Source: Streptomyces fulvorobeus
GTDB lineage: Bacteria > Actinomycetota > Actinomycetes > Streptomycetales > Streptomycetaceae
Reading direction: 5' to 3'
DNA length: 64,000 nucleotides
Assembly (NCBI RefSeq): GCF_013167895.1
Contig: NZ_BLWC01000001.1
Location: forward strand, 5,394,001-5,458,000
Positions within the stretch are counted from its first letter, which is position 1. Each line of letters starts with the position of its first letter. The translations under genes were made by a program, and so were the position numbers. A model generated the notes under the pieces. The model worked only from the letters and a program-made list of their open reading frames with translations. It was not told the origin of the DNA and did not search any database. Below are positions 1-12,078 of this stretch, piece by piece.

Positions 1-608
1 GGCCGGCCTGGGAGGTGGCGCAGGCCAACACCCTGGCCGAGCTGCGCGACTGGTCGCCGTTTGCCGGACTCCAGATCAGGTACAACCTGCTCGAACGGAC
101 CGTCGAGCGCGAACTCCTCCCGATGGCCCAGGCGTTCGACCTCCCGGTCTTCGCCTGGGGGCCGCTGGCCGACGGCCGGCTCACCGGCAAGTACCTGCGG
201 TCCGAGGGCGGCAGGCTGGACCACGTCGCCTGGGGCCAGGGCGGCAGGGGGCCGGGTGACGACGTCGTGGAGGAGACGGTACGGGTCGCCGAGGCGGCGG
301 GCCTCAGCCCCGCCCAGGTGGCGCTCGCCTGGCTGCTCTCCCGGCCGGGCAACGTGGTTCCCCTGCTCGGCGCCACCAAGGAGGAGCAACTCGCCGACAA
401 CCTCGCGGCCGTCGATGCGGTCCTGGAGGACGAGTGGCTGGCTCGCCTGGACGAGGTCAGCCGGGTGGAGCCGGGCTTCCCGCACGACTTCCTCCGCTTC
501 CCCGCGATGCGGAACGCGATCTACGGCGACCGCTGGCAGCAGGTCGACGACCTGCGCTCCACGGTGCGCCGCGTCCCGGCCGACGACCAGTACACGACGG
601 CGCGGTAG
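1..608 (+). CDS. Aldo/keto reductase, C-terminal part (cut by window start)
   Basis: The reading frame is open from base 3 to the stop at 606-608, so the gene begins upstream of the window. About 200 residues are visible. They carry the second half of an AKR barrel: 'QIRYNLLER' (the 'YN' strand before the cofactor site), 'FAWGPLADGRLTGKY', and the cofactor segment 'NVVPLLGATKEEQLADNLAA', which matches the family motif for binding the NADP adenosine phosphate. Probably an NADPH-dependent carbonyl reductase; the substrate cannot be read and the catalytic Asp/Tyr/Lys/His lie mostly outside the window. It converges on the PPOX gene, with a strong hairpin between them. Confidence 0.85.
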   Translation, partial: PAWEVAQANTLAELRDWSPFAGLQIRYNLLERTVERELLPMAQAFDLPVFAWGPLADGRLTGKYLRSEGGRLDHVAWGQGGRGPGDDVVEETVRVAEAAGLSPAQVALAWLLSRPGNVVPLLGATKEEQLADNLAAVDAVLEDEWLARLDEVSRVEPGFPHDFLRFPAMRNAIYGDRWQQVDDLRSTVRRVPADDQYTTAR

Positions 609-695: not shown

Positions 696-1153
696 TCAGG
701 GGTTCTTCACGTTGACCGTCTCCGAGAGATTGACCTTGGCCACGATGTGCTCGACCTTCACCCGGACGACCACGCCGTTGGGGATCGTGAACCGGTCGGA
801 GAACTCCTCCTCGCGCGCCCGGCCGTGGTACCGGCCGCCGATCCGGGCGGTCCAGGTCCGCAGCTCGTCCAGGTCCTCGCTGAGGGTCGCCCTGCCCCGT
901 ACCAGTACGAAGGAGAACGGCGGCCGCTCGTCGTCCCACAGCATGGCGATCCGGCCGTCCCGCTGGAGGGAGCGGCCCTTCACGCTGTCCTTCTGGCAGG
1001 TGTAGATGATGTCGTCGCCGTCCATGATGACGCCGACCGGCACGACGTGCGGGCTGCCGTCCTTGCGGACCACCGATGCCTTGGCGGTCCTCGGCGGGTC
1101 CGCCATGATGAACTCGCGCCACCAGCCCTCGGGGCGTCCACGTAACTGGGCAC
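696..1153 (-). CDS. PPOX-class (F420-/flavin-dependent) oxidoreductase, frame break
   Basis: Split-barrel flavin/F420-binding protein of the pyridoxamine-phosphate-oxidase superfamily. The conserved core is clear: 'PPRTAKASVVRKDGSPHVVPVG', then 'MLWDDERPPFSFVLVRGRATL' (first 20 residues diagnostic). The N-terminus is split between frames. A GTG at 1153, behind an AAGGAG ribosome site, gives 'VPSYVDAP', and the next frame continues 'EGWWREFIMADPP'. One extra G in the run 1131-1134 joins them into 152 residues, the usual family length. Starting at the ATG at 1106 would lose the conserved 'WWREF' helix and has no ribosome site. The GTG lies just downstream of the stop of the lipocalin-like gene, so the two are co-transcribed. 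Confidence 0.8.
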
Positions 1154-1155
1154 GT

Positions 1156-1572
1156 CTACTCCTTCTCCTGCTGTGTCGGATCGTCGTTCTCTGCGCGTCG
1201 CCAGGTCAGGACGCGTTCGGGCGCGCGGCCGCCCACCGGGTTCACGGCCGTGCCGCGGAGCGACAGCGCGGGGCCGTCCAGCGCGACACGGCGCACCTGC
1301 TCGGTGCCCGCCATCCGCGGATGCGCGCTGACGAGCACCGTGTGCGTCATCTCGTCCCCGGCCAGCCGCCACCGCCCGGAGTACCCCATGAAGGTCTCCA
1401 GGGCCGGGCCCTGACCGGTCTTCATCATGCTGACCGCGACATGACCGTCCGCGGTGTAGATCAGCAGCCCCGCCGGTGCGTCGCCCAGGGGGCCGGCCAC
1501 CGTCGAGCCCGACTCGTCCACCTCGGTGTACGAGTCCAGCCGCCAGACCCCGACGACGTCGTCCGGGGTCAT
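1156..1572 (-). CDS. Lipocalin-like domain protein
   Basis: 138 residues with the lipocalin-like pattern: 'VVGVWRLDSYTEVDESG', 'GLLIYTADGHVAVSMM', then 'YSGRWRLAGDEMTHTV' and 'VRRVALDGPALSLRG'. There is no signal peptide, so it is probably cytoplasmic; such small beta-barrels often bind hydrophobic ligands or act in polyketide-like pathways, but no ligand can be named. Its ATG overlaps the TGA of the upstream secreted protein (ATGA), and its stop is 2 bases before the PPOX start, so the three genes form one coupled unit. Confidence 0.75.
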   Translation of the reverse strand: MTPDDVVGVWRLDSYTEVDESGSTVAGPLGDAPAGLLIYTADGHVAVSMMKTGQGPALETFMGYSGRWRLAGDEMTHTVLVSAHPRMAGTEQVRRVALDGPALSLRGTAVNPVGGRAPERVLTWRRAENDDPTQQEKE

Positions 1573-2648
1573 CGCACGCGCCGGCTGGAGACCCGGTAGG
1601 GGCCGAGCCGGAAGGACGCGCCCTGCCCGAACAGGCGGCCGGCCTCGGTGCTCTCCTCATCCGCGAACTCCAGCTCGGCGGGTGCGCCGACCGAGGGCCG
1701 GTAGTACGTCGAGTGAGTCCGCGAGGAGAGCCGGACGAGCCCCTTGTCGGTGGGCCATGAGGCGTCCAGGAGGGTGAGGAGTCCCAGACCGGCGTTGAGC
1801 TGCCGGGGCTTGATCAGCGTCTCCTCACCACCCTCGTCCAGGGTCGCGGTCGAGCGGTCCAGCCGGAAACCGATGCGGTCCACCCGGAACACCTCGCGGC
1901 CGTCGATCAGCCAGCGGACGACCCCGGCGGCGCGGTCGTAGGCGATGCCGAAGCGGTGGGTGTCGTCCGGAGCGCGGTCGGCGAGCGGCACCGTGTGGGC
2001 GAAGGAGGCGTAGTCGCCCAGCTCGCCGCGCATGAAGGTGGGCCGGCCGTACCACGCGTAGATCCGCTTGTTGGTGACCACGAAGTCGAAGGAGACGGAG
2101 GTCTCCGGGTCCGTGGTCAGCATCATCGCGGAGGCGAGGCGCAGGTCGTCGTCCGGGTCGCTCACCGCGTCGCCGAAGGGGTGCCCCGCGGTGCCGTAGG
2201 TGCGGCCGGAGAGCCGGGTCTCGAAGAGCAGCTCGTAACCGTCCTCGGCGTCGAAGCCAGGGTGCCCGCTCGTCGCGGTGTGGCTGGTGTAGGCGATGAA
2301 CTTGGCGTGGTCGCCCGAGCCGGGCATACCGATCGGGTTGTCGGCGGGGATGGTCTGGGTGAAGGCGGGCTCGCCCGTCACCGGGTGGCTTCCGCGTGCC
2401 CGTACGGACAGTTCGCCCTTGCGGGTGGTGACCACGCCGTCGTCGGCCCGGTACGGGCCCCCGGCCACGTGGAACCAGCGGGCGTCTTCGCCCTCGGCGC
2501 GGAAGCCGTCCGCGAAGTCGTCCCAGACCATGCGGTAGTCGCGGCTGTCCCGCCGGGCGGTCGCCGTTCCGGGCGTCGCCATGACGGTGCCCAGCGCGGC
2601 GGCGGCCAGCAGCAGGGCGTGCCGGGAGACGAATGTTCTGCGCGGCAT
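1569..2648 (-). CDS. Secreted protein of unknown function, paralogue A (DUF6081-like)
   Basis: 359 residues. The start at 2648 is chosen because it opens a signal peptide (MPRRTFVSRH, then a hydrophobic stretch to about residue 28, with a twin-arginine-like RRTFV). The frame remains open far upstream, but that extension has non-protein-like arginine-rich composition. The mature part shares 'RTYGT', 'VSDP', 'RLAS', 'YAWYGR' and 'LFGQGA' blocks with the protein at 4458-5522, so the two are paralogues. The alternating strand pattern suggests a jelly-roll or lectin-like fold, which is inference. I believe it matches the family called DUF6081; no activity is known to me. Confidence 0.75.
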   Translation of the reverse strand: MPRRTFVSRHALLLAAAALGTVMATPGTATARRDSRDYRMVWDDFADGFRAEGEDARWFHVAGGPYRADDGVVTTRKGELSVRARGSHPVTGEPAFTQTIPADNPIGMPGSGDHAKFIAYTSHTATSGHPGFDAEDGYELLFETRLSGRTYGTAGHPFGDAVSDPDDDLRLASAMMLTTDPETSVSFDFVVTNKRIYAWYGRPTFMRGELGDYASFAHTVPLADRAPDDTHRFGIAYDRAAGVVRWLIDGREVFRVDRIGFRLDRSTATLDEGGEETLIKPRQLNAGLGLLTLLDASWPTDKGLVRLSSRTHSTYYRPSVGAPAELEFADEESTEAGRLFGQGASFRLGPYRVSSRRVR

Positions 2649-2692: not shown

Positions 2693-3370
2693 TCACCGGT
2701 GGCCCTCCAGTACGGCGGTGACCGCGGCGGCGAAGGAGTCCACGACCGTGTCGGCCCCGGCCCGCTTCAGTTCGTCCGGCGACGACACGCCGTACGAGAC
2801 ACCGATCACGCTCATCCCGGCGGCCCGGCCCATCTCCGCGTCGGGCACCCCGTCGCCGATGACGACGCACTGCCCGGGAGCGAGGCCGAGCGCCCCGGCG
2901 ACGTGCAGGGCCATGTCCGGGTTCGGTTTGCCGCGTGCCACGGTGTCGTCGCCCGCGATGACCTTCAGCCAGGCGTCCAGACCGGTGATCTGCGCGATCG
3001 CGTGCGCGGCCTTCTCCACCTTCGAGGTCGCCAGCGCCAGCCCGAAGCCGGCCGCGGAGAGCGCCTCGAGTCCGTCGAGGACGCCGGGGTAGAGCAGCGC
3101 GGGACCGGCCGCCCGCACGTGGGCGCCGAACCGCCGCCCGTACTCCTCGGTCGCCGCGGTGACCTTCGGGTCGTCGACGGAAAGGTTCATCAGCCCGGCG
3201 AGCGAGGCGGCCAGCGGCCGTCCGACCGTGGCCAGGATCGCCTGACGGGACACCTCGGTACCCGCCGCCGACAACACGTCGGCGGTGATGGCGGCGATCG
3301 CCGCGGGGGTGTCGGCGAGCGTCCCGTCCAGGTCGAGGATGACCCCGCGGGTCGCCGCGGGGGCGGTCAC
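2693..3370 (-). CDS. HAD-superfamily phosphatase coupled to the PsuG-like gene
   Basis: 225 residues. HAD motifs are complete: motif I 'DLDGTLAD', motif II 'LATSK', motif III Lys in 'ARGKPNPD', motif IV '[12 protein letters not shown]', with a helical cap between I and II (subfamily IA). The start is the GTG at 3370, whose GTGA overlaps the stop of the PsuG-like gene, so the two are translationally coupled. In the alnumycin (AlnA/AlnB) and indigoidine (IndA/IndB) clusters the same pairing occurs, with the HAD enzyme removing phosphate from a C-ribosyl-phosphate product. By analogy this enzyme may dephosphorylate the product of its partner; phosphoglycolate-type activity is the alternative. 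Confidence 0.8.
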
Positions 3371-4287
3371 CGCTCGGCCTGCACGGCGCTCAGGGCCACG
3401 GAGAACTCCCCGGCGACCCGGGCGGTGCTCAGCAGCAGCGACCGGCCGGCCTTCGGCAGCATGCCGTCGGACGCCCTGGCGAGCGCCTTCATCAGGTAGG
3501 GGCTGACCGCGTTGCCCACGATCCCGTCCCGGTCGCACTGGGCGAGCGCGTCGGCTATGGCGGTCTCCACCACGGTGTTGTCCGCCGCGTCCCGCTCGTC
3601 GATCGGGTTGGTCAGCAGGACCGTTCCCGGTCCGTTGACCTCCCAGTGCGCCTCGGCGGCACGGGCGGCGGTGTGCAGGTCGTCCATCCGCTGCACGGAC
3701 ACGTCGGCCTCGCGCACCACGAACGCCGGCAGCTTGCCGGTGCGGTACCCGTAGACCGGGATGCCCGCGGTCTCCAGGTACTCGGCGGTCAGCCGGTGGT
3801 CCAGGATGCTCTTGGCGCCGCCGCAGACCACGGTCATCCGGGTACGGCGGAACTGGAGCAGGTCGGGGGAGATGTCGAGCGTGTCCTGCCCCCGCCGGTG
3901 GACCCCGCCGATGCCCGCCGTGGTGAACACCTGGATGCCCGCCCGCTCGGCGATCACGATGGTGCCCGCCACCGTCGTCGCGCCCAGGCCGCCGCCCGCC
4001 AGCGCGGCACCGATGTCCCGGGCGCTGATCTTCGGGATGCCCTTGGTGGCCGAGAAGCGCTCGATGAGCTCGTCCGTCAGGCCGACGACCAGCTTCCCGC
4101 CGGCGATCCCGATGGTGGCCGGAACCGCCCCGGCGTCCCGCACGGCCTTCTCGATCAGGGACGCGGTCTCGGACGAGGGGTCGGTGGTGATGAGCGACGA
4201 CTCCAGGGCCACCACCGGACGGCGCTCCGCCAGTGCGGTGGCGATCTCCTCGCTGACCTCGAGCAGCGGATCGGGCTGTCGTTCCAT
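3367..4287 (-). CDS. PsuG/IndA/AlnA-family C-ribosidase or C-glycosynthase, divergent active site
   Basis: 306 residues, aligned over the full length with pseudouridine-5'-phosphate glycosidases. Start ATG 4287 follows AGGAAGGA. Retained catalytic positions: Glu29 in 'VALES', Lys86 in 'PKISARD', Lys159 in 'GGAKSILD' (the Schiff-base lysine), and the phosphate/metal loop '[16 protein letters not shown]'. Changed: the family His-Gly after 'EST' reads 'SSLITTD' here, and the conserved Asn-Asn before 'AR' near the C-terminus reads Ser287-Thr288. There is no PfkB-type pseudouridine kinase beside it; a HAD phosphatase overlaps instead. Ordinary pseudouridine salvage is therefore less likely than C-ribosylation or cleavage of some other C-nucleoside. 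Substrate unknown. Confidence 0.8.
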
Positions 4288-4457: not shown

Positions 4458-5522
4458 GTGACAAGGCGAACGGCAAGACGCAAGCTGGCGTACGCACTGG
4501 TGGCCGGGGCAGCGGTGACGGCTCTGCTGCCGGCCACCGCACAGTCGGCGCCGAAGGCGGCGGAATCCGGCGGCACGGTCCTGTTCAAGGACGGGTTCGG
4601 CACCGGGTTCTCCTCCGGCGAGAACGGCGACTGGATGGTCCTCGGCGACACCGAATGGCCGGATGGCGACGCCGTCATCTCCACCGCGGGTGGCGTGCTC
4701 GACGTGAAGCCGACCGGTGTCAACCCCAGGACCGGCCACCCCGCGTACGCGCGGAGCGTCGGACCGCAGGGCGGCGAGGGCGCGGACGACCACATCAAGT
4801 GGATCGCCTTCCCCAACCGCTACACCGCCGACGGCACCCCTGGCTTCGAGGTCCCGGACACCGGCTCCATCAGCTGTGAGCACCGGGTGGCGGGCCGGAC
4901 CTACGGCACCGAGAACCCGTTCGGGCGCACCGTGTCGGACCCGGCGTCCGACATCCGGCTCGCCTCCATCGCGCTGATCACGGCGGACTTCGAGTCGCAG
5001 GCGATCGCCGACTTCTCGGTGACCAACGACGCCGTGTACGCCATCTACGAGCGGCTGCCGAGCGCGACCGAGGACTACGCGGCGTACGGCTACGCGATAC
5101 CGGTCGCCAGGACCGCGCCGGGAGAGATGCACGACCTGGAGGTCCGTGTCGACCAGGGCGGCAAGCGCGTCGCCTGGTACGTGGACGGTGCGCTGAAGCT
5201 GCGCACCGACAAGATCGGCACGCGCGCCTTCGACCGCAAGTACATGACGCTGGACCACGGCGGGACCGAGGAGGAGCTGACGCTCCATCAGATCAGCTGC
5301 GGGATGGCCCTGGGCAGTCTGCTGGACGGCGCGAAGCCGGGTGCTGCCGACGGCAAGGCGCTGGTCAGGCTCAAGGACAGGCAGGACTTCTACTACGATC
5401 CGCGGGCCGGCGAGCCCGTGGAGCAGACGTTCCTCGACCCAGAGAGCCGGGTCGAGAACCGGCTCTTCGGCCAGGGGGCCCGGATGCGGCTCGACGCGAC
5501 CAGGGTCGTCGTGCGGCCCTGA
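4458..5522 (+). CDS. Secreted protein of unknown function, paralogue B (DUF6081-like)
   Basis: 354 residues. Start GTG 4458 follows an AGGGGG site by about 6 bases and opens a signal peptide (MTRRTARRK, hydrophobic to 'LLPATAQSAP'). It shares 'RTYGT', 'FGRTVSDP', 'RLASI' and 'LFGQGA' blocks with the protein at 1569-2648. Divergent from the PsuG-like gene with 170 bp between them. The pair of paralogues flanks the PsuG/HAD module, which suggests a shared role, for instance handling an exported or extracellular ligand; this is inference. No catalytic motif recognised. Confidence 0.75.
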   Translation: MTRRTARRKLAYALVAGAAVTALLPATAQSAPKAAESGGTVLFKDGFGTGFSSGENGDWMVLGDTEWPDGDAVISTAGGVLDVKPTGVNPRTGHPAYARSVGPQGGEGADDHIKWIAFPNRYTADGTPGFEVPDTGSISCEHRVAGRTYGTENPFGRTVSDPASDIRLASIALITADFESQAIADFSVTNDAVYAIYERLPSATEDYAAYGYAIPVARTAPGEMHDLEVRVDQGGKRVAWYVDGALKLRTDKIGTRAFDRKYMTLDHGGTEEELTLHQISCGMALGSLLDGAKPGAADGKALVRLKDRQDFYYDPRAGEPVEQTFLDPESRVENRLFGQGARMRLDATRVVVRP

Positions 5523-5597: not shown

Positions 5598-6418
5598 TCA
5601 GCCTGCCCTGAGCAGGAGTTCGGGCTCGGGGGAGGAGTCGGACAGCCGGCCCTGGTCCCCGTTCAGCACCTCCTGGTGCAACCGCTGGATGCGGCCGGAC
5701 GGCTCGACCCCCAGTTCGCCGACGAGCGTGGCCCGCAGCTGCTGGTAGACCTCCAGCGCCCGCCAGTTGTGCCCCGACCGGCACAGCGCGATCATCAACT
5801 GCGCGTGGAAGCTCTCGTGCAGCGGGTGCCGCGCCACCAGCATGCGCAGTTCGCCGATGAGGTCGGCGTGCCGGCCGAGCCGCAGGTCGGCCTCGACCCG
5901 CAGTTCCAGCGCCCGGGCCCTGCCCTCCTCGATGCCCAGGATCTCGGTGTCCAGGAGAGGCCCCGTCGGCACGTCGACGAGTGCCGGGCCCTGCCACAGG
6001 CCGAGCGCGCGGCCGAGCAGCTCGGCCGCGCGGGCGGCGTCCCCCCGCTCCAGCGCCGTGCCCCCTCCGCCGTGAGCCGCTGGAAGTCGACGACGTCACT
6101 GCTGCGGACCGGCTCGCTGAGCTGGTATCCGCCGAAGCGCGTGCTCAGCACGTCCTTGGCCTGGGGGCGCCGGGCGTCCGGGCGCGCCGCGCTGATCCTG
6201 CGGCGGAGCTGGAGGATGTAGGTCTGGAGCGTCGTCTGTGCGCTGCGGGGTATCCGGTCCCCCCAGATCTCCTCCATCAGGACCGGAACGGGCACGATCC
6301 GTCCTGCCCGCAGCGCGAGGAGAGCCAATATCTGCCGGGGCTTTCCGGCACTCGGGACGACCGATGTGCCGTCAAGGCGTACGTCGAGCGGTCCCAATAC
6401 TTTGATTTCCACAACCAA
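5598..6418 (-). CDS. SARP-family transcriptional activator, frame break
   Basis: Two overlapping frames together give one small SARP of 273 residues. The N-terminal frame (from ATG 6418) holds the OmpR-like winged helix ('VLGPLDVRLDG', 'PRQILALLALRAG', 'LQTYILQLRRRI'). The second frame holds the bacterial transcriptional activation domain ('LVDVPTGPLLDTEI', 'LIGELRMLVARHPLHE', 'LRATLVGELGVEPS'). One added G at about 6055-6058 restores 'EGARALERGDAARAAELLGR'. SARPs typically activate secondary-metabolite genes by binding direct heptamer repeats; four TGAA-containing heptamers lie just upstream of this gene. Its target may be the neighbouring PsuG/HAD and secreted-protein genes, which is inference. 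Confidence 0.85.
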
Positions 6419-6758: not shown

Positions 6759-7331
6759 TCAGTTCCGTCGGCAGTCCACGTGGCTGATCGCCTTCCACTC
6801 CTCTCCGGGGAACCTGATGAATGCGTCGTCGGTGAACCGGTCGCCGTCGACGATACGGAACTCGTCCTTGCTGGCGACGTGTCCCGCCGGGATGACGTAG
6901 GGCCCCCTGAAGCGGAGCATGCCGTTGTCGTTCCAGCCCTGGGAAGTCGCGGTTCCGGTATTGCCCCAGGTGTCCCAGTAGAACGAGGTGAACTCGTCGT
7001 CGACCGCGTTGCGGCCGAACACCCAGCGCCCTTCGAAGGCGGGTGTGGTGCCTATCAGGCGCATCTCGTAGAAGGCGCCGCCCAGCGTCTTCTCCGTCTT
7101 CCAGTCGACGTTCACCGTGACGGGTTCGGCGAGGGTGAGATCGGTGTACGCGCAGCTGAAGTCACCGAGCAGGAAGTCCAGCTCGGTGATGGGGCCGGCG
7201 CCGTTCGTTCCGCTCCTGGGCGCGGCCTGCTGTCCCCAGGCGGTCATGGAGCCCGTCGTGACGAGTGCGAGCGCGCCGGCGAGCGTGGCGAGCGCGCGGA
7301 GCCGGAAGCGGCTGGAAGATGCGGAGAGCAT
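6759..7331 (-). CDS. Secreted DUF1579-like protein
   Basis: 190 residues with a typical signal peptide (arginines, then 'ALATLAGALALVTTGS', cleavage probably after 'TAWGQQA'). The mature part begins 'ITELDFLLGDFSCAYTDL' and contains 'GGAFYEMRLIG', 'FEGRWVFGRN', 'FYWDTWGN', the pattern of DUF1579-type beta-barrel proteins related to lipocalins. No function is known. It is a single gene with its own terminator; the MFS gene upstream also has its own terminator, so it is probably monocistronic. Confidence 0.65.
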   Translation of the reverse strand: MLSASSSRFRLRALATLAGALALVTTGSMTAWGQQAAPRSGTNGAGPITELDFLLGDFSCAYTDLTLAEPVTVNVDWKTEKTLGGAFYEMRLIGTTPAFEGRWVFGRNAVDDEFTSFYWDTWGNTGTATSQGWNDNGMLRFRGPYVIPAGHVASKDEFRIVDGDRFTDDAFIRFPGEEWKAISHVDCRRN

Positions 7332-7512: not shown

Positions 7513-9042
7513 TCAGCTCCCCGCGGGGGCCCCGGAGGTGGCGACGGGCACCGCGGCGCCGGAGACCGGGCCGTGGTCGCCGGGCGCGTCCTCGTCCTCG
7601 TCGGGCTCCAGGCCGTCCACGTCGACCCGGCCCGGGGGCAGGACGAAGGCGAGCAGTCCGGCCGCGACGTAGAGACCGACGACGGTCAGCAGACCGGTGA
7701 CCGCCGCGTCCACGGGGGAGTGCTGGTCCTCCAGCAGTGTGAAGTAGACGGTGCCCACGATCGCCACGCCGGTGGCCGCACCGAGCTGGATGGCCGTGTT
7801 GATCAGCGAGGAAGCGGCGCCCGACGCGGACCTGGGCATCTTGGCGAGCACGATGGTCAGGAGGGTTCCGGCGACCATGGCGAGGCCGATACCGGAGATG
7901 ACCATGCCGGGCACCAGGTGCCACCACTCCAGCTCACCGGAGTAGCGGTCGACGGTCCACGCCACGATCCCCATGCCCACGGCGATGACCGCGCAGCCCA
8001 TCAGCACCACCCGGCGTCCGAGCGGCATCAGCTTGGGAGCGAAGGCCGAACCGATGCCCACGCCCACCGTGAAGGTGGCCAGCGCCACCGCCGTACGCAG
8101 CGGGGAGTAGCCCTCGGCCGTCTGGAGGTGGACGGTCATCACCACCTGGTAGGCCATGCCGCAGAAGAACAGGACGGCGACCAGCAGCCCGCCCAGCGAA
8201 CTGCGGTGGCGCAGCAGGTCGGGGTCGATGATCGGGGACTCGCCGCGGTCGGCGACCCGGCGCTCGTAACGGGCGAACAGCCACAGGAGGAGCGGGCAGG
8301 CGATCATCAGCGCGAAGGTCCACCAGGGCCATCCCAGCTCCCTGCCCTGGATGAGCGGGTAGAGCAGGCTGACCAGGGCGACCGTGGCGAGCAGGGTGCC
8401 CCGGATGTCGAAGGTCTCGCGGGAGTCGGCGCGCGACTCGCGGGTGAGGTAGTAGGCGGCGACGAGCGCGATCAGTCCGACCGGCACGTTGATGAAGAAC
8501 AGCGGGCGCCAGCTGAGGTCGAAGAGGTCGGCCTGGAGCAGTACGCCGCCGAGCAGCGGGCCGCCGATGCCGCCGAGGGCGAGCGACATGCCGTACATCG
8601 ACATCGCCTGGGGGCGCTCGGACTTGGGGAAGTCGACCTGGAGCATCGCCAGGACCTGGGGCACCATCAGGGCCGCCGCGGCGCCCTGGAGGATGCGGGA
8701 GGCGATGAGCATCTCCACGTTGACCGCGGCACCGGCCAGGGCCGAGGTGACGACGAAGGCGCCGAGGCCGATCAGGTAGATCCGCCGGCGTCCGAGCTGG
8801 TCGCCGAGGCGGGCGCCGGTGATCATCGCGGCCGCGAAGGCCAGCGTGTATCCCGCCACCGACCATTCCAGCTGCGAGGACGAGGCGTTCAGGTCGCGCT
8901 GGACCGCGGGGAGCGCGACGTTGAGGACCGTGTTGTCCACCATGTCCATGAACACGGCGAACAGGGTCACTCCCAGCGTCGCCCAGCGCTTGGGGCTGTA
9001 CTGCGGCGGTGGTGGTGAGTCGGCCAGTTTTTCCACCGTCAT
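7513..9042 (-). CDS. DHA2-type MFS drug efflux transporter
   Basis: 509 residues, predicted 14 transmembrane helices. DHA2 markers: 'DMVDNTVLNVALPAVQRDL' in TM1 (motif D1), 'GARLGDQLGRRRIY' (motif A), 'SRILQGAAAALMVP' (motif B), 'GGIGGPLLGG' (motif C). The start ATG 9042 follows GGAGGG by 8 bases; an upstream in-frame start adds only 11 residues. A proton-driven exporter of antibiotics or other toxic compounds in the membrane. It is divergent from a MarR repressor, with a 21-bp palindrome in between, so it is very likely repressed by that MarR and induced by a substrate or related compound. Confidence 0.9.
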   Translation of the reverse strand: MTVEKLADSPPPPQYSPKRWATLGVTLFAVFMDMVDNTVLNVALPAVQRDLNASSSQLEWSVAGYTLAFAAAMITGARLGDQLGRRRIYLIGLGAFVVTSALAGAAVNVEMLIASRILQGAAAALMVPQVLAMLQVDFPKSERPQAMSMYGMSLALGGIGGPLLGGVLLQADLFDLSWRPLFFINVPVGLIALVAAYYLTRESRADSRETFDIRGTLLATVALVSLLYPLIQGRELGWPWWTFALMIACPLLLWLFARYERRVADRGESPIIDPDLLRHRSSLGGLLVAVLFFCGMAYQVVMTVHLQTAEGYSPLRTAVALATFTVGVGIGSAFAPKLMPLGRRVVLMGCAVIAVGMGIVAWTVDRYSGELEWWHLVPGMVISGIGLAMVAGTLLTIVLAKMPRSASGAASSLINTAIQLGAATGVAIVGTVYFTLLEDQHSPVDAAVTGLLTVVGLYVAAGLLAFVLPPGRVDVDGLEPDEDEDAPGDHGPVSGAAVPVATSGAPAGS

Positions 9043-9093
9043 GAGTCGGCCCTCCGGTAGCCTCGGCAGCAGCATGGAAAAGCAGAGCTAAAT

Positions 9094-9114
9094 GCTTTGC
9101 TTTCAAAGCAAAGC
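9094..9114. promoter_or_regulatory. MarR-type operator palindrome
   Basis: A 21-bp palindrome, GCTTTGCTTT and AAAGCAAAGC around a central C, in the 91-bp gap between divergent MFS and MarR genes. The gap is AT-rich compared with the surroundings. MarR proteins bind such 16-20-bp palindromes, so this is the likely shared operator. Confidence 0.75.
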
Positions 9115-9133
9115 TATTGCGGGGGGCTGTGTC

Positions 9134-9607
9134 ATGTCAAGCGATGGTGAGGGGGGAGCCGAGCCCAGCGTCGACGACGGAGTCCGCACCCTGCTGCTCC
9201 TGATGCCGCGCGTGGTCGCGCGCACGAAGCGCACCCCGGTGCCCAAGCAGCTGGAGGAGTTCAACCTCGCTCCCAGGCACCTGTCGCTGCTGGCCTACCT
9301 GTACTTCGACGGACCGCTCGCGGTCAACGAGCTGGCGACGCGTCTTGAGCTCGCCCCGGCCACCGTGAGCCTGCTCGTGGGCGAGCTGAACCGGTACGGA
9401 GTGGTGGACCGCGATGACGACCCGTCCGACCGGCGCCGCAAGATCGTCGGCATCGCCGACGTGCACCTGGACGCGGTGCGCTCCTGGCTGGAGAACGGCG
9501 TACGGGCGTGGCGGGCCGCGCTGCGGCCGCTGAGCCCCGCCGAGCGGCGCACCTTCGTCGAGACCCTCCGCGTCTACGAGCGGGAACTGACGGAGGGCCA
9601 GGAGTAG
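9134..9607 (+). CDS. MarR-family repressor
   Basis: 157 residues from ATG 9134, which follows a GGGGGG site; the frame also has an ATG at 9092, but that lies before the palindrome centre and has no ribosome site. The winged helix is visible: 'LAPRHLSLLAYLYFDGPLAVNELATRL', recognition helix 'APATVSLLVGELNRYGVV', wing 'DRDDDPSDRRRKIVGI', followed by a long C-terminal dimerisation helix. Probable ligand-responsive repressor of the divergent DHA2 pump and of itself. Confidence 0.85.
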   Translation: MSSDGEGGAEPSVDDGVRTLLLLMPRVVARTKRTPVPKQLEEFNLAPRHLSLLAYLYFDGPLAVNELATRLELAPATVSLLVGELNRYGVVDRDDDPSDRRRKIVGIADVHLDAVRSWLENGVRAWRAALRPLSPAERRTFVETLRVYERELTEGQE

Positions 9608-9659
9608 GGCCTGCCGATCGGATCATGCCGGGCCCGCGGGGTCCGGCGCCGACGAGGAA

Positions 9660-9675
9660 CCCCGGGACCACGGGG
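9660..9675. terminator. Weak hairpin between MarR and response regulator genes
   Basis: A short stem (CCCCG/CGGGG with a 6-base loop) in the 83-bp gap between convergent genes. A 12-bp direct repeat, GGGGTCCGGCGC, flanks it at about 9638 and 9673. Either could contribute to termination; the evidence is modest. Confidence 0.4.
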
Positions 9676-9690
9676 GTCCGGCGCGGACCG

Positions 9691-10295
9691 TCAGATGAGG
9701 CCGTGCTCCCGCGCGATGCGCACCGCGTCCACCCGGTTGCGCGCACCGAGCTTGCGCACGATCGCCGTCAGGTAGTTGCGGACCGTGCCGGTGCTCAGGT
9801 GCAGCTCCTGCGCGATGACGCGTACGTCCTCCCCGTCCGCCGTCAGGCGCAGCACCGACACCTCGCGCGGGGTCAGTTGGGGCGCCGGGCCGTCCCAGGA
9901 CGTCAGCGCGAGCTGCGGGTCGATCACCCGCTGCCCCGCCACCACCTTGCGGATCGCCTCGGTCAGATCGCTCGGCAGCGCGTCCTTGAGCAGGTAGCCG
10001 TCGACCTGAGTGGCCAGCGCCCGGCGCAGCGTCGCCGTGGTGCCGAGGCTGGTGATGACCAGCAGCCGGCACGAGGGAAGGCAGGAGCGTAATTTCGCCA
10101 CGGCCGTCAGTCCGTCGGTGCCGGGCAGATCGATGTCGACGACCGCGACGTCTGGCCGGAACTCCACGGCCGTGGGAAGAAGATCGTCCCAGTGGCCCAC
10201 CTCCGCCACGACGTGGAAATCCGGCTCCATCTGTAACAGGGCCACCAAGGCCCGCGCAGCATGGGCATCTCCTCGGCAATGACCAGCCGTATCAC
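9691..10295 (-). CDS. Orphan LuxR/NarL-type response regulator, frame break
   Basis: 201 residues after joining two frames. The first frame (GTG 10295) gives 'VIRLVIAEEMPMLRG', the second 'ALVALLQMEPDFHVVAEVG', continuing to the end. One extra base in the C run 10251-10253 restores the typical receiver start. Receiver: 'DVAVVDIDLPGTDG' with the phosphoacceptor Asp, 'VITSLG', and Lys in 'GYLLKDALPSDL'. LuxR helix-turn-helix: 'QLTPREVSVLRLTADGEDV', 'STGTVRNYLTAIVRKLGA', 'VDAVRIAREHGLI'. In the NarL/DesR group the Asp is phosphorylated by a membrane histidine kinase. No kinase gene lies next to it, so it is an orphan here. Confidence 0.85.
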
Positions 10296-10543
10296 GAACC
10301 GCCCCTCCCCCAGAGACGGCAATAGTACGTCGAACACGCCTACTAATCAGGGGCGTTCCGGTGATCGGCGTTTTGCGGAACTATCGTCCCGCATGCGCTC
10401 GGGGTCCGCCCCCGGGGCCGCGCCGCACCCTTCTCACGCCCTGCCCTGAGCCGGGTTCGAGGACTTCTCCACCGCCCGCACCGACCCTGGGTGAGGCAAG
10501 CGTCCGGATCAGGACGCCGCAGCCGACAGGGAGGGAGACGGCT

Positions 10544-11554
10544 ATGACATGGACCGTCAGAACGGCCGGGACTCGCCACAGCGCGCTGCTCGGCATCGGC
10601 GGCTACCGGCCACACCGGGTGGTCGGCAACGCGGAGATCTGCCGGCTGATCGACTCCACCGAGGAGTGGATCGAGACCCGTAGCGGCATCGTCGAGCGAC
10701 GGTTCGCGGGCCCGGACGAGACCTTGCCGATGATGGCCACCGCGGCGGCCGAGAAAGCCCTGGCCCAGGCCGGGACGGTGCCGGGCGAGATCGACCTGGT
10801 CCTGGTGGCGAGCATGTCCAACCTGGTGCAGACCCCGCCGCTCTCCGTCCGCGTGGCGCACGAGCTCGGTGCGCGGGGCGCCGCTGCCGTCGATCTCTCC
10901 GCCGCCTGCGCCGGCTTCTGCCACGCCCTCGCCATGGCCTCCGACGCGGTCCGGGCCGGCAGCGCGCGGCGGGTCCTGGTCATCGGCGCCGAGCGCATGA
11001 CCGACATCGTGGAGCCCACGGACCGGACCATCTCCTTCCTCTTCGCCGACGGGGCGGGCGCCGTGGTCGTCGGCGACGCCCCGGCGCCGGGGATCGGCCC
11101 GGTCGTACGGCGGGCGGACGGCGCCCACGCCGAAGCGCTCCGGATGACGGCCCCCTGGGCCGGGGCGGGCGCCGTGACCGGTGCCGGGCAGGCGGAACGG
11201 CCGTGGATGCGGATGGACGGGCGCCGGGTCTTCCGCTGGGCCATGGACGAGGTGGCCCCGGCCGCCGCGCGGGCCCTCGACGAGGCGGGCACGACGCCCG
11301 CGGCGCTCGACGTCTTCGTGCCGCACCAGGCCAACCTCCGCATGATCGACCTGCTGTCCGAGCGGCTGGGTCTGACCGGCGCCACCGCGGTCGCCCGCGA
11401 CGTGGCGCACAGCGGCAACACCTCGGCGGCCTCCATCCCGCTGGCACTGGATGCGATGCTCGCCTCCCAGCAGGCGTCGACCGGGGACACGGCGCTGCTC
11501 GTCGGCTTCGGCGCCGGACTCAACTACGCCGCGCAGGTGGTGGTCCTGCCGTGA
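10544..11554 (+). CDS. Beta-ketoacyl-ACP synthase III family protein
   Basis: 336 residues, normal FabH length. Start ATG 10544 follows GGGAGGGAG. The catalytic triad is complete: Cys122 in 'SAACAGFCHAL', His261 in 'FVPHQANLRM', Asn292 in 'HSGNTSAAS'. The N-terminal 'STEEWIETRSGIVERRF' motif is present. KAS III condenses an acyl-CoA starter with malonyl-ACP. It stands apart from the fatty-acid synthase locus, with no ACP or KAS II beside it, and its stop overlaps the GTG of a flavin reductase, so it may serve a specialised pathway or branched-starter supply. That role is inference. Confidence 0.9.
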   Translation: MTWTVRTAGTRHSALLGIGGYRPHRVVGNAEICRLIDSTEEWIETRSGIVERRFAGPDETLPMMATAAAEKALAQAGTVPGEIDLVLVASMSNLVQTPPLSVRVAHELGARGAAAVDLSAACAGFCHALAMASDAVRAGSARRVLVIGAERMTDIVEPTDRTISFLFADGAGAVVVGDAPAPGIGPVVRRADGAHAEALRMTAPWAGAGAVTGAGQAERPWMRMDGRRVFRWAMDEVAPAAARALDEAGTTPAALDVFVPHQANLRMIDLLSERLGLTGATAVARDVAHSGNTSAASIPLALDAMLASQQASTGDTALLVGFGAGLNYAAQVVVLP

Positions 11555-12078
11555 ACCGCACCGACCACCGCACCGCCGCCCTCCCAAAGGCCCCGCCCGT
11601 CGGCGAGGCGTTCCGGGCGGCCATGGCGCAGCTCGCCGGAGGCGTCGTCGTCGTCACGACCGAGGACGCCGAGGGGGAGCCGCGCGGATTCACCGCCACC
11701 TCGTTCTGCTCCGTATCCATGGACCCGCCGCTCGTGCTCGTCTGCCTCGCGGAGACGTCGAGCTCCTACCAGGTGTTCTCCGAGTGCCGGGGCTTCGCCG
11801 TGAGTCTCCTGCGCGAGGACCAGAGCGCGCTGGCCACCCGGTTCGCCCGCTCCGGCGGGGACAAGTTCCGCGCGGAGGACACCGTCACCACCCCGCGCCT
11901 GCTCCCCGCGGTGGCGGACACGCTGGTGACCCTGGACTGCGCGGTGCACGCCCGCCACCCCGCGGGCGACCACATGATCCTCGTCGGCGCCGTCCGGCAC
12001 GTCCTGCCCGGCCGGGGGGAGCCACTCGTCTACTACGACCGGGCCTTCAGACAGCTGAGGCACCTGCCGGGAAACTGA
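11551..12078 (+). CDS. Flavin reductase-like FMN-binding protein
   Basis: 175 residues, starting at GTG 11551 within the stop of the KAS III gene (GTGA). HpaC/ActVB-type split barrel: 'FRAAMAQLAGGVVVVTTEDAEG', 'GFTATSFCSVSMDPPLVLVCL', 'SSSYQVFSECRGFAVSLL', 'LVYYDRAFRQL'. These enzymes use NAD(P)H to reduce free FMN or FAD and supply it to a two-component monooxygenase. No oxygenase is encoded nearby, so the partner is elsewhere or the protein uses its flavin directly. Tight coupling to a ketosynthase is unusual. Confidence 0.85.
   Translation: MNRTDHRTAALPKAPPVGEAFRAAMAQLAGGVVVVTTEDAEGEPRGFTATSFCSVSMDPPLVLVCLAETSSSYQVFSECRGFAVSLLREDQSALATRFARSGGDKFRAEDTVTTPRLLPAVADTLVTLDCAVHARHPAGDHMILVGAVRHVLPGRGEPLVYYDRAFRQLRHLPGN

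Follow-up and report, generated by a model that had tools for sequence, protein, structure and literature searches.

A PsuG-family gene and a HAD phosphatase gene that lie side by side in a Streptomyces genome raise the question of whether they form an orphan C-ribosylation pair with a new acceptor, as a preliminary description had it, or belong to a pathway that is already known. The window analysed here is a stretch of 64,000 nucleotides, C1:5394001-5458000 of a 6.63-Mb genome. The two reading frames overlap by GTGA at the positions given in the preliminary description, and have a third-position GC of 0.96 (PsuG-family gene) and 0.94 (HAD gene). The features of the locus are listed in Table 1. 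Genes were called by a simple third-position GC rule, by which some genes were missed or given the wrong start; the genes for the KR, the second ACP and the acyltransferase were recognised from the frames.

Table 1. Features of the alnumycin-type locus. Positions are those of the window unless prefixed with C1.
Feature	Position	Strand	Evidence and remarks
CofC-like gene	C1:5382027-5382701	-	
Acyltransferase, second ACP, SnoaL-like protein	left of KSalpha		
KSalpha, KSbeta, ACP, KR, two-domain aromatase/cyclase, MBL-fold cyclase, PPTase	KSalpha to window		
Acyl-CoA-dehydrogenase-type oxygenase (AlnT candidate)	KSalpha to window		close to HsaA/HpaB-type enzymes; assigned by family only
TetR	KSalpha to window		
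F420H2-quinone-reductase-like protein	C1:5393073-5393537		
Aldo-keto reductase (Aln4 candidate)	1-608	+	PF00248, in the part left of the window; C-terminal part inside, gene start at C1:5393541, 460 bases left of window
F420-dependent PPOX-class oxidoreductase	696-1106	-	PF01243; TIGR03618, 93.2 bits (cut-off 79.05)
Lipocalin_5 domain protein	1156-1572	-	PF13924
DUF6081 protein 1 (Aln6-family oxidase by family name)	1569-2648	-	PF19559, 305.6 bits; twin-arginine-like N-terminus
HAD phosphatase, AlnB-type	2693-3370	-	225 aa, GTG start; HAD families in Pfam
PsuG-family protein, AlnA-type C-ribosylation enzyme	3367-4287	-	306 aa; PF04227, 295.7 bits
DUF6081 protein 2	4458-5522	+	PF19559, 277.0 bits; export-type N-terminus
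SARP activator, split	5598-6418	-	PF00486 in one frame, PF03704 (BTAD) in another
Small protein	6759-7331	-	no Pfam family; signal-like N-terminus; same place in 4/5 related loci
MFS transporter, probable exporter	7513-9075	-	PF07690
MarR-type regulator	9092-9607	+	PF12802/PF01047
Response regulator	9691-10248	-	PF00072 + PF00196
Ketosynthase III (starter-unit enzyme)	10361-11554	+	PF08545 + PF08541
Flavin reductase domain protein (AlnH candidate, by family)	11623-12057 (C1:5405623-5406057)	+	PF01613

The top PDB match of the PsuG-like protein (P0001) was AlnA (4ex8, E = 1.1e-172), followed at some distance by E. coli PsuG (4gij, E = 6.5e-65), and that of the HAD protein was AlnB (4ex6, E = 9.4e-106), the next HAD having an E value of 3.5e-16. 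P0001 is identical to the crystallised AlnA at 276 of 305 positions (90.5%), and the HAD protein, in which the DLDGT, ATSK, GKP and GDGVPD stretches are all found, to AlnB at 177 of 220 (80%). AlnA (4ex8/4ex9) and AlnB (4ex6/4ex7) come from the aln cluster of Streptomyces sp. CM020, for which PMC10376017 gives the GenBank accession EU852062 and from which the window sequences diverge by ≈10–20%; the link to that cluster runs through these PDB chains and one related locus (L038). Judged by these sequences, the pair is the orthologue of the characterised alnumycin C-ribosylation pair, that is, a known system. An AlnA-type protein with at least 76% identity was present in four of 199 sampled genomes of the genus, including the genome of the window itself, and a scan of genome contigs with P0001 gave three loci. 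The 66 matching records in the plasmid collection were all below 60% identity, so the collection holds no close copy. An NCBIfam scan assigned no family to P0001 or to either of the two DUF6081 proteins that flank the pair.

A tree of 29 rows was built from 20 loci found in the genome search, two from the contig scan (L036 and L038), five of the 66 plasmid records, P0001 and 4ex8. The rows are best hits and not a random sample, and L037 was left out because it shares a contig with L004. P0001, AlnA and the proteins of five aln-type loci form a clade of seven rows (starred; support 100/99), while six kinase-paired PsuG proteins, including the other copy in this genome, fall on a separate side with the same support (100/99). 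The program flagged two meetings of long branches, one between four Streptomyces PsuG proteins and the rest, the other between the group of L012 and that of the aln rows plus L007; the clade of seven lies outside both warnings. Together, the shared clade and the PDB matches support the AlnA/AlnB-type C-ribosylation that had been proposed.

The retention of Glu29, Lys86 and Lys159 was confirmed in P0001. These residues (one Glu and two Lys) are common to the salvage PsuG, an enzyme of the same family that works with the PfkB-type kinase PsuK. Both of the motif losses that had been described were also found. At the His-Gly position after EST, P0001 has TTD followed by a four-residue gap, the same as in 4ex8. 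This state occurs in all seven aln rows (4ex8 included), in none of the eight other HAD-paired rows, in none of the six kinase-paired rows, which all keep His-Gly, and in none of the eight rows with neither partner. The replacement is thus AlnA's own state. The C-terminal Asn-Asn position is Ser-Thr in P0001, in all seven aln rows and in most of the other HAD-paired rows; the kinase-paired rows have NN (two of six) or GN (four of six). Ser-Thr is therefore more a feature of HAD-paired proteins in general than of AlnA in particular, and this change is weaker evidence than the preliminary description took it to be.

The orphan appearance of the pair comes solely from the left window edge, beyond which lies the remainder of an alnumycin-type cluster. 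Ketosynthase matches were found at C1:5384713 and C1:5386032, and a set of type II PKS genes (KSalpha, KSbeta, ACP, KR and cyclases) lies 1.8–9.3 kb to the left of the window edge. From the CofC-like gene to the flavin reductase gene, the cluster spans ≈24 kb (C1:~5382000-5406060). The absence of PKS and NRPS genes from the window, as described previously, holds for KSalpha, KSbeta and NRPS genes rightward of the pair; the ketosynthase III and flavin reductase genes, however, are inside it. When 36 neighbouring proteins (10 + 10 + 10 + 6) were given to Pfam, no NRPS family was found among them, and a module of the NRPS type, like those of IndA, MinB and SdmA, was rejected on this ground. The CofC-like, F420H2-quinone-reductase-like and F420-dependent PPOX genes suggest that coenzyme F420 serves the pathway.

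We compared the cluster with seven other loci by tblastn, using 24 query pieces from KSalpha to ketosynthase III (23 genes, with the SARP gene in two parts); the row of the LLM query, which had been read out of frame, is void. All 24 pieces were matched in CB02058 and in G127, the match to the PPTase in G127 covering 18% of the protein. V4I2 and S. phaeochromogenes NRRL B-1248 matched 22 of 24 pieces each and gave no PPTase match; both loci end inside KSbeta, which leaves KSalpha uncovered. In G161, 22 pieces were matched, 20 of them in place, the MFS transporter giving a weak match elsewhere and the ketosynthase III lying ≈12 kb further away. G124 and G180 matched only the pair and one or two weak others. 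The cluster is thus collinear with five related loci. The aldo-keto reductase is found in the same place in CB02058 (94% identity), G127 (90%), V4I2 (89%) and S. phaeochromogenes (90%), and the PPOX protein is 95–96% identical in the four closest loci.

Two of the related loci carry nearly the crystallised sequences themselves: the AlnA of S. phaeochromogenes NRRL B-1248 agrees with 4ex8 at 305 of 305 positions and the HAD protein of the same locus with 4ex6 at 217 of 222, and the AlnA of G127 agrees with 4ex8 at 301 of 305. The gene order in our cluster is that of NRRL B-1248. As in the aln cluster of CM020, PKS, oxygenase, aldo-keto reductase and DUF6081 genes lie beside the pair, and AlnA has the same His-Gly replacement and gap. 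A protein of ≈430 residues, perhaps a sensor kinase, is encoded between the MarR and response regulator genes in G127, V4I2 and S. phaeochromogenes, but is missing from the window (9607-9691) and from CB02058, so that the response regulator may be left without a partner. (Some of the “genes” called in this region of the related loci are antisense frames.) Alnumycin clusters have been described in further strains of S. phaeochromogenes, that of BV-204 (32 ORFs, 31,030 bp) with a comparison to CM020 and NBC 00034 (PMC11062104), and the cluster is reported in 3% of streptomycete genomes (PMC10376017).

The SARP activator that had been placed beside the pair is present, but its gene is broken across two frames, with the DNA-binding portion in that of 6418 and the BTAD portion in that of 5972, a difference from the CM020 cluster. 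With a motif search, the gene was recovered as a single uninterrupted frame (267 aa) in three of the five relatives (G127, V4I2 and S. phaeochromogenes) and was not found in CB02058 or G161, while the pieces matched by tblastn were in step in all five. Either the frame has truly been lost or the assembly is in error; an error is possible since the completeness of this genome is 94.22, compared to mostly 98–100 for the others. The cluster is therefore possibly silent, if the fault does not lie in the assembly at this point.

The identity to AlnA and AlnB, the clade, the gene content and the gene order were read directly from the DNA and its translations, and on this basis the pair is almost certainly AlnA/AlnB, encoded in a type II polyketide cluster of the alnumycin type in a Streptomyces. 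An orphan pair acting on a new acceptor encoded elsewhere is very improbable by comparison, and we rejected it: the departures from the PsuG motifs and the lack of KSalpha/KSbeta or NRPS genes to the right within the 64 kb would fit that reading, but the PKS genes just beyond the left edge stand in an order conserved in the collinear clusters, AlnA identity is 90.5%, and two further biosynthetic genes are inside the window itself. The new or remote acceptor is likewise unsupported, given the alnumycin-type genes that adjoin the pair or share the window with it. The possibility of a pseudouridine-5'-phosphate glycosidase in salvage, for which the PF04227 family and the three retained residues might speak, is smaller still and may be set aside. 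The protein is split from the six kinase-paired PsuG rows, it has lost the His-Gly, and it has a HAD phosphatase rather than a PfkB kinase beside it. In addition, the genome has a canonical PsuG gene with an adjoining PfkB kinase gene elsewhere (L001, C1:1341805-), by which pseudouridine salvage is covered. The tree placement and this separate pair led us to reject salvage. The two types of protein are well separated in sequence: P0001 is identical to an E. coli plasmid PsuG at 128 of 296 positions, and the genome's own PsuG to AlnA at 119 of 306.

A more serious alternative concerns the product. The cluster could be alnumycin-like and still lead to an end product other than alnumycin A, through variant tailoring or as a shunt such as K1115A. 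AlnA is 90.5%, and not 98–100%, identical to 4ex8, and some genes of the relatives are absent or diverged, such as that of the ≈430-residue protein in three of the five loci. Furthermore, a strain bearing the cluster is reported to give K-1115A and no alnumycin (PMC11062104). Against this, the match to the related clusters is nearly gene for gene, with identities in the four closest loci of 89–94% for the aldo-keto reductase and 95–96% for PPOX. We consider a different end product unlikely.

In the alnumycin-type reading, the chemical steps and the product are taken over from published work on the orthologues. The ketosynthase III, acyltransferase and second ACP would load the starter unit, and KSalpha, KSbeta, ACP, KR and the two cyclases would build the aromatic core, from which an oxygenase pair of the AlnT/AlnH type, both members assigned by family or place, would make the quinone. 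AlnA would then join ribose-5-phosphate to the prealnumycin core through a C–C bond, by a Michael-type addition, and AlnB would take off the phosphate. The ribose would next be opened at a C–C bond by a DUF6081 (Aln6-family) oxidase, and the result of this cleavage would be reduced by the aldo-keto reductase, the Aln4 candidate; these two are likewise assigned by family or place. Aln6 cleaves the C1'–C2' bond in alnumycin biosynthesis, in which Aln4 is reported to act last. The acceptor of the pair is most likely prealnumycin. The published accounts describe the same Michael-type addition by AlnA to prealnumycin and dephosphorylation by AlnB (PMC5321127), a mixture of anomers from AlnA (PMC7722734), and Aln6 as a cofactor-independent oxidase that cleaves a C–C bond (PMC10697411). 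For alnumycin D, the listed producer is a construct from which aln6 has been deleted (PMC8431294, PMC6787268), in keeping with Aln6 acting after ribosylation.

The pair had been described as sitting between two paralogous secreted proteins. Both flanking proteins are indeed DUF6081 proteins with N-termini that look, by eye, to be of the export type, and this type of N-terminus is kept in five of five related loci for each of them (also judged by eye). They are the only two DUF6081 matches in the genome. DUF6081 was above the cut-off in 19 of 199 genomes, among them all four AlnA-type genomes, with 2, 2, 2 and 3 copies. In table 1 of PMC10697411, NcnN is labelled “ActVA-3/Aln6” and its closest relative is a DUF6081 protein; that paper describes the NcnN/ActVA-3/Aln6 family as oxidases that work without a cofactor and have no structural characterisation, and NcnN is listed with 180 aa, compared to 354–360 aa for the two DUF6081 proteins of the window.

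DUF6081 protein 1 was modelled, minus its N-terminus, with AlphaFold2 from an alignment of 21 rows (mean pLDDT 79.6, pTM 0.85). With Foldseek, the model matched GH16 enzymes with a best E value of 5.3e-07, at query TM-scores of only 0.30–0.47 among the 50 matches listed, and with VIA-align the best GH16 match had Z = 15.9 and an rmsd of 3.5 over 216 aligned residues. The catalytic motif of GH16 enzymes is E-x-D-x(1-3)-E. This motif was found in none of the 21 DUF6081 rows, and a search of the PDB sequences with the DUF6081 profile gave no match at E values up to 0.1. The protein is therefore predicted, from the model, to have a GH16-like jelly-roll that lacks the GH16 motif, and in the absence of this motif from all 21 rows we have not filed the DUF6081 proteins as GH16. 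Invariant residues of the family include His78, Asp132, Arg134, Asp144, Tyr164 and Arg166 (alignment A1, numbering of its first row). Export of the Aln6-type enzymes would be odd if a cytosolic aldo-keto reductase works after them: with Aln4 in the cytosol, two membrane passages of the intermediate would be needed, and it is on this consideration that a reading with extracellular cleavage is based. We tentatively propose, while regarding it as somewhat doubtful, that both DUF6081 proteins are exported oxidases that need no cofactor and have a glycanase-like (GH16-type) jelly-roll, without the hydrolase motif, as their scaffold. They might then cleave the C-bound ribose with O2 outside the cytosol, once the C-riboside has been exported.

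Among other systems, the naphthocyclinone and actinorhodin clusters (NcnN and ActVA-3, respectively) share with ours a type II PKS for a benzoisochromanequinone, an oxidase of the DUF6081 family, PPOX, SARP and MFS genes; the ncn gene table, in contrast, lists no AlnA/AlnB pair, and the oxidase there serves dimerisation (PMC10697411). A PsuG-type enzyme and a HAD phosphatase also occur together in showdomycin (SdmA/SdmB) and minimycin (MinB/MinC) biosynthesis, where the acceptor comes from an NRPS (PMC8724604), whereas that of the window cluster would come from a type II PKS.

Pairs of AlnA-like and AlnB-like genes without aln PKS genes were observed in two genomes (L032/L033 in G124 and L034/L035 in G180) and on a plasmid of Streptomyces sp. 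NBC_00212 (L039, 73936-98829), with 57–64% and 55% identity to P0001; the plasmid pair has cupin, acyltransferase, asparagine synthase, dihydroorotase-family and flavin reductase genes as neighbours. These pairs may be other C-ribosylation clusters. On a Burkholderia stagnalis plasmid (L043, NZ_CP156687.1 58767-75678), PsuG-type and HAD genes lie with genes for AMP-binding, acyl carrier, ‘ectoine synthase’, acyl-CoA dehydrogenase, MFS and nucleoside deaminase proteins, a combination that resembles the showdomycin set of adenylation, carrier protein, cyclase, C-glycosynthase and phosphatase described in PMC8724604. In eight loci (L013-L019 and L040), the DNA examined around the PsuG-type gene contained no AlnB-like HAD gene and no PfkB kinase gene; the neighbours in L040, from the S. 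lavendulae plasmid pSA3239, include tautomerase, alkene reductase, ribose-phosphate diphosphokinase, adenylation-domain protein and SARP genes.

An apparent orphan pair with a new acceptor thus drops off the list of leads, and the strain becomes one more carrier of a known cluster. For the DUF6081 family, the predicted fold, the invariant residues and the location of the proteins become testable.
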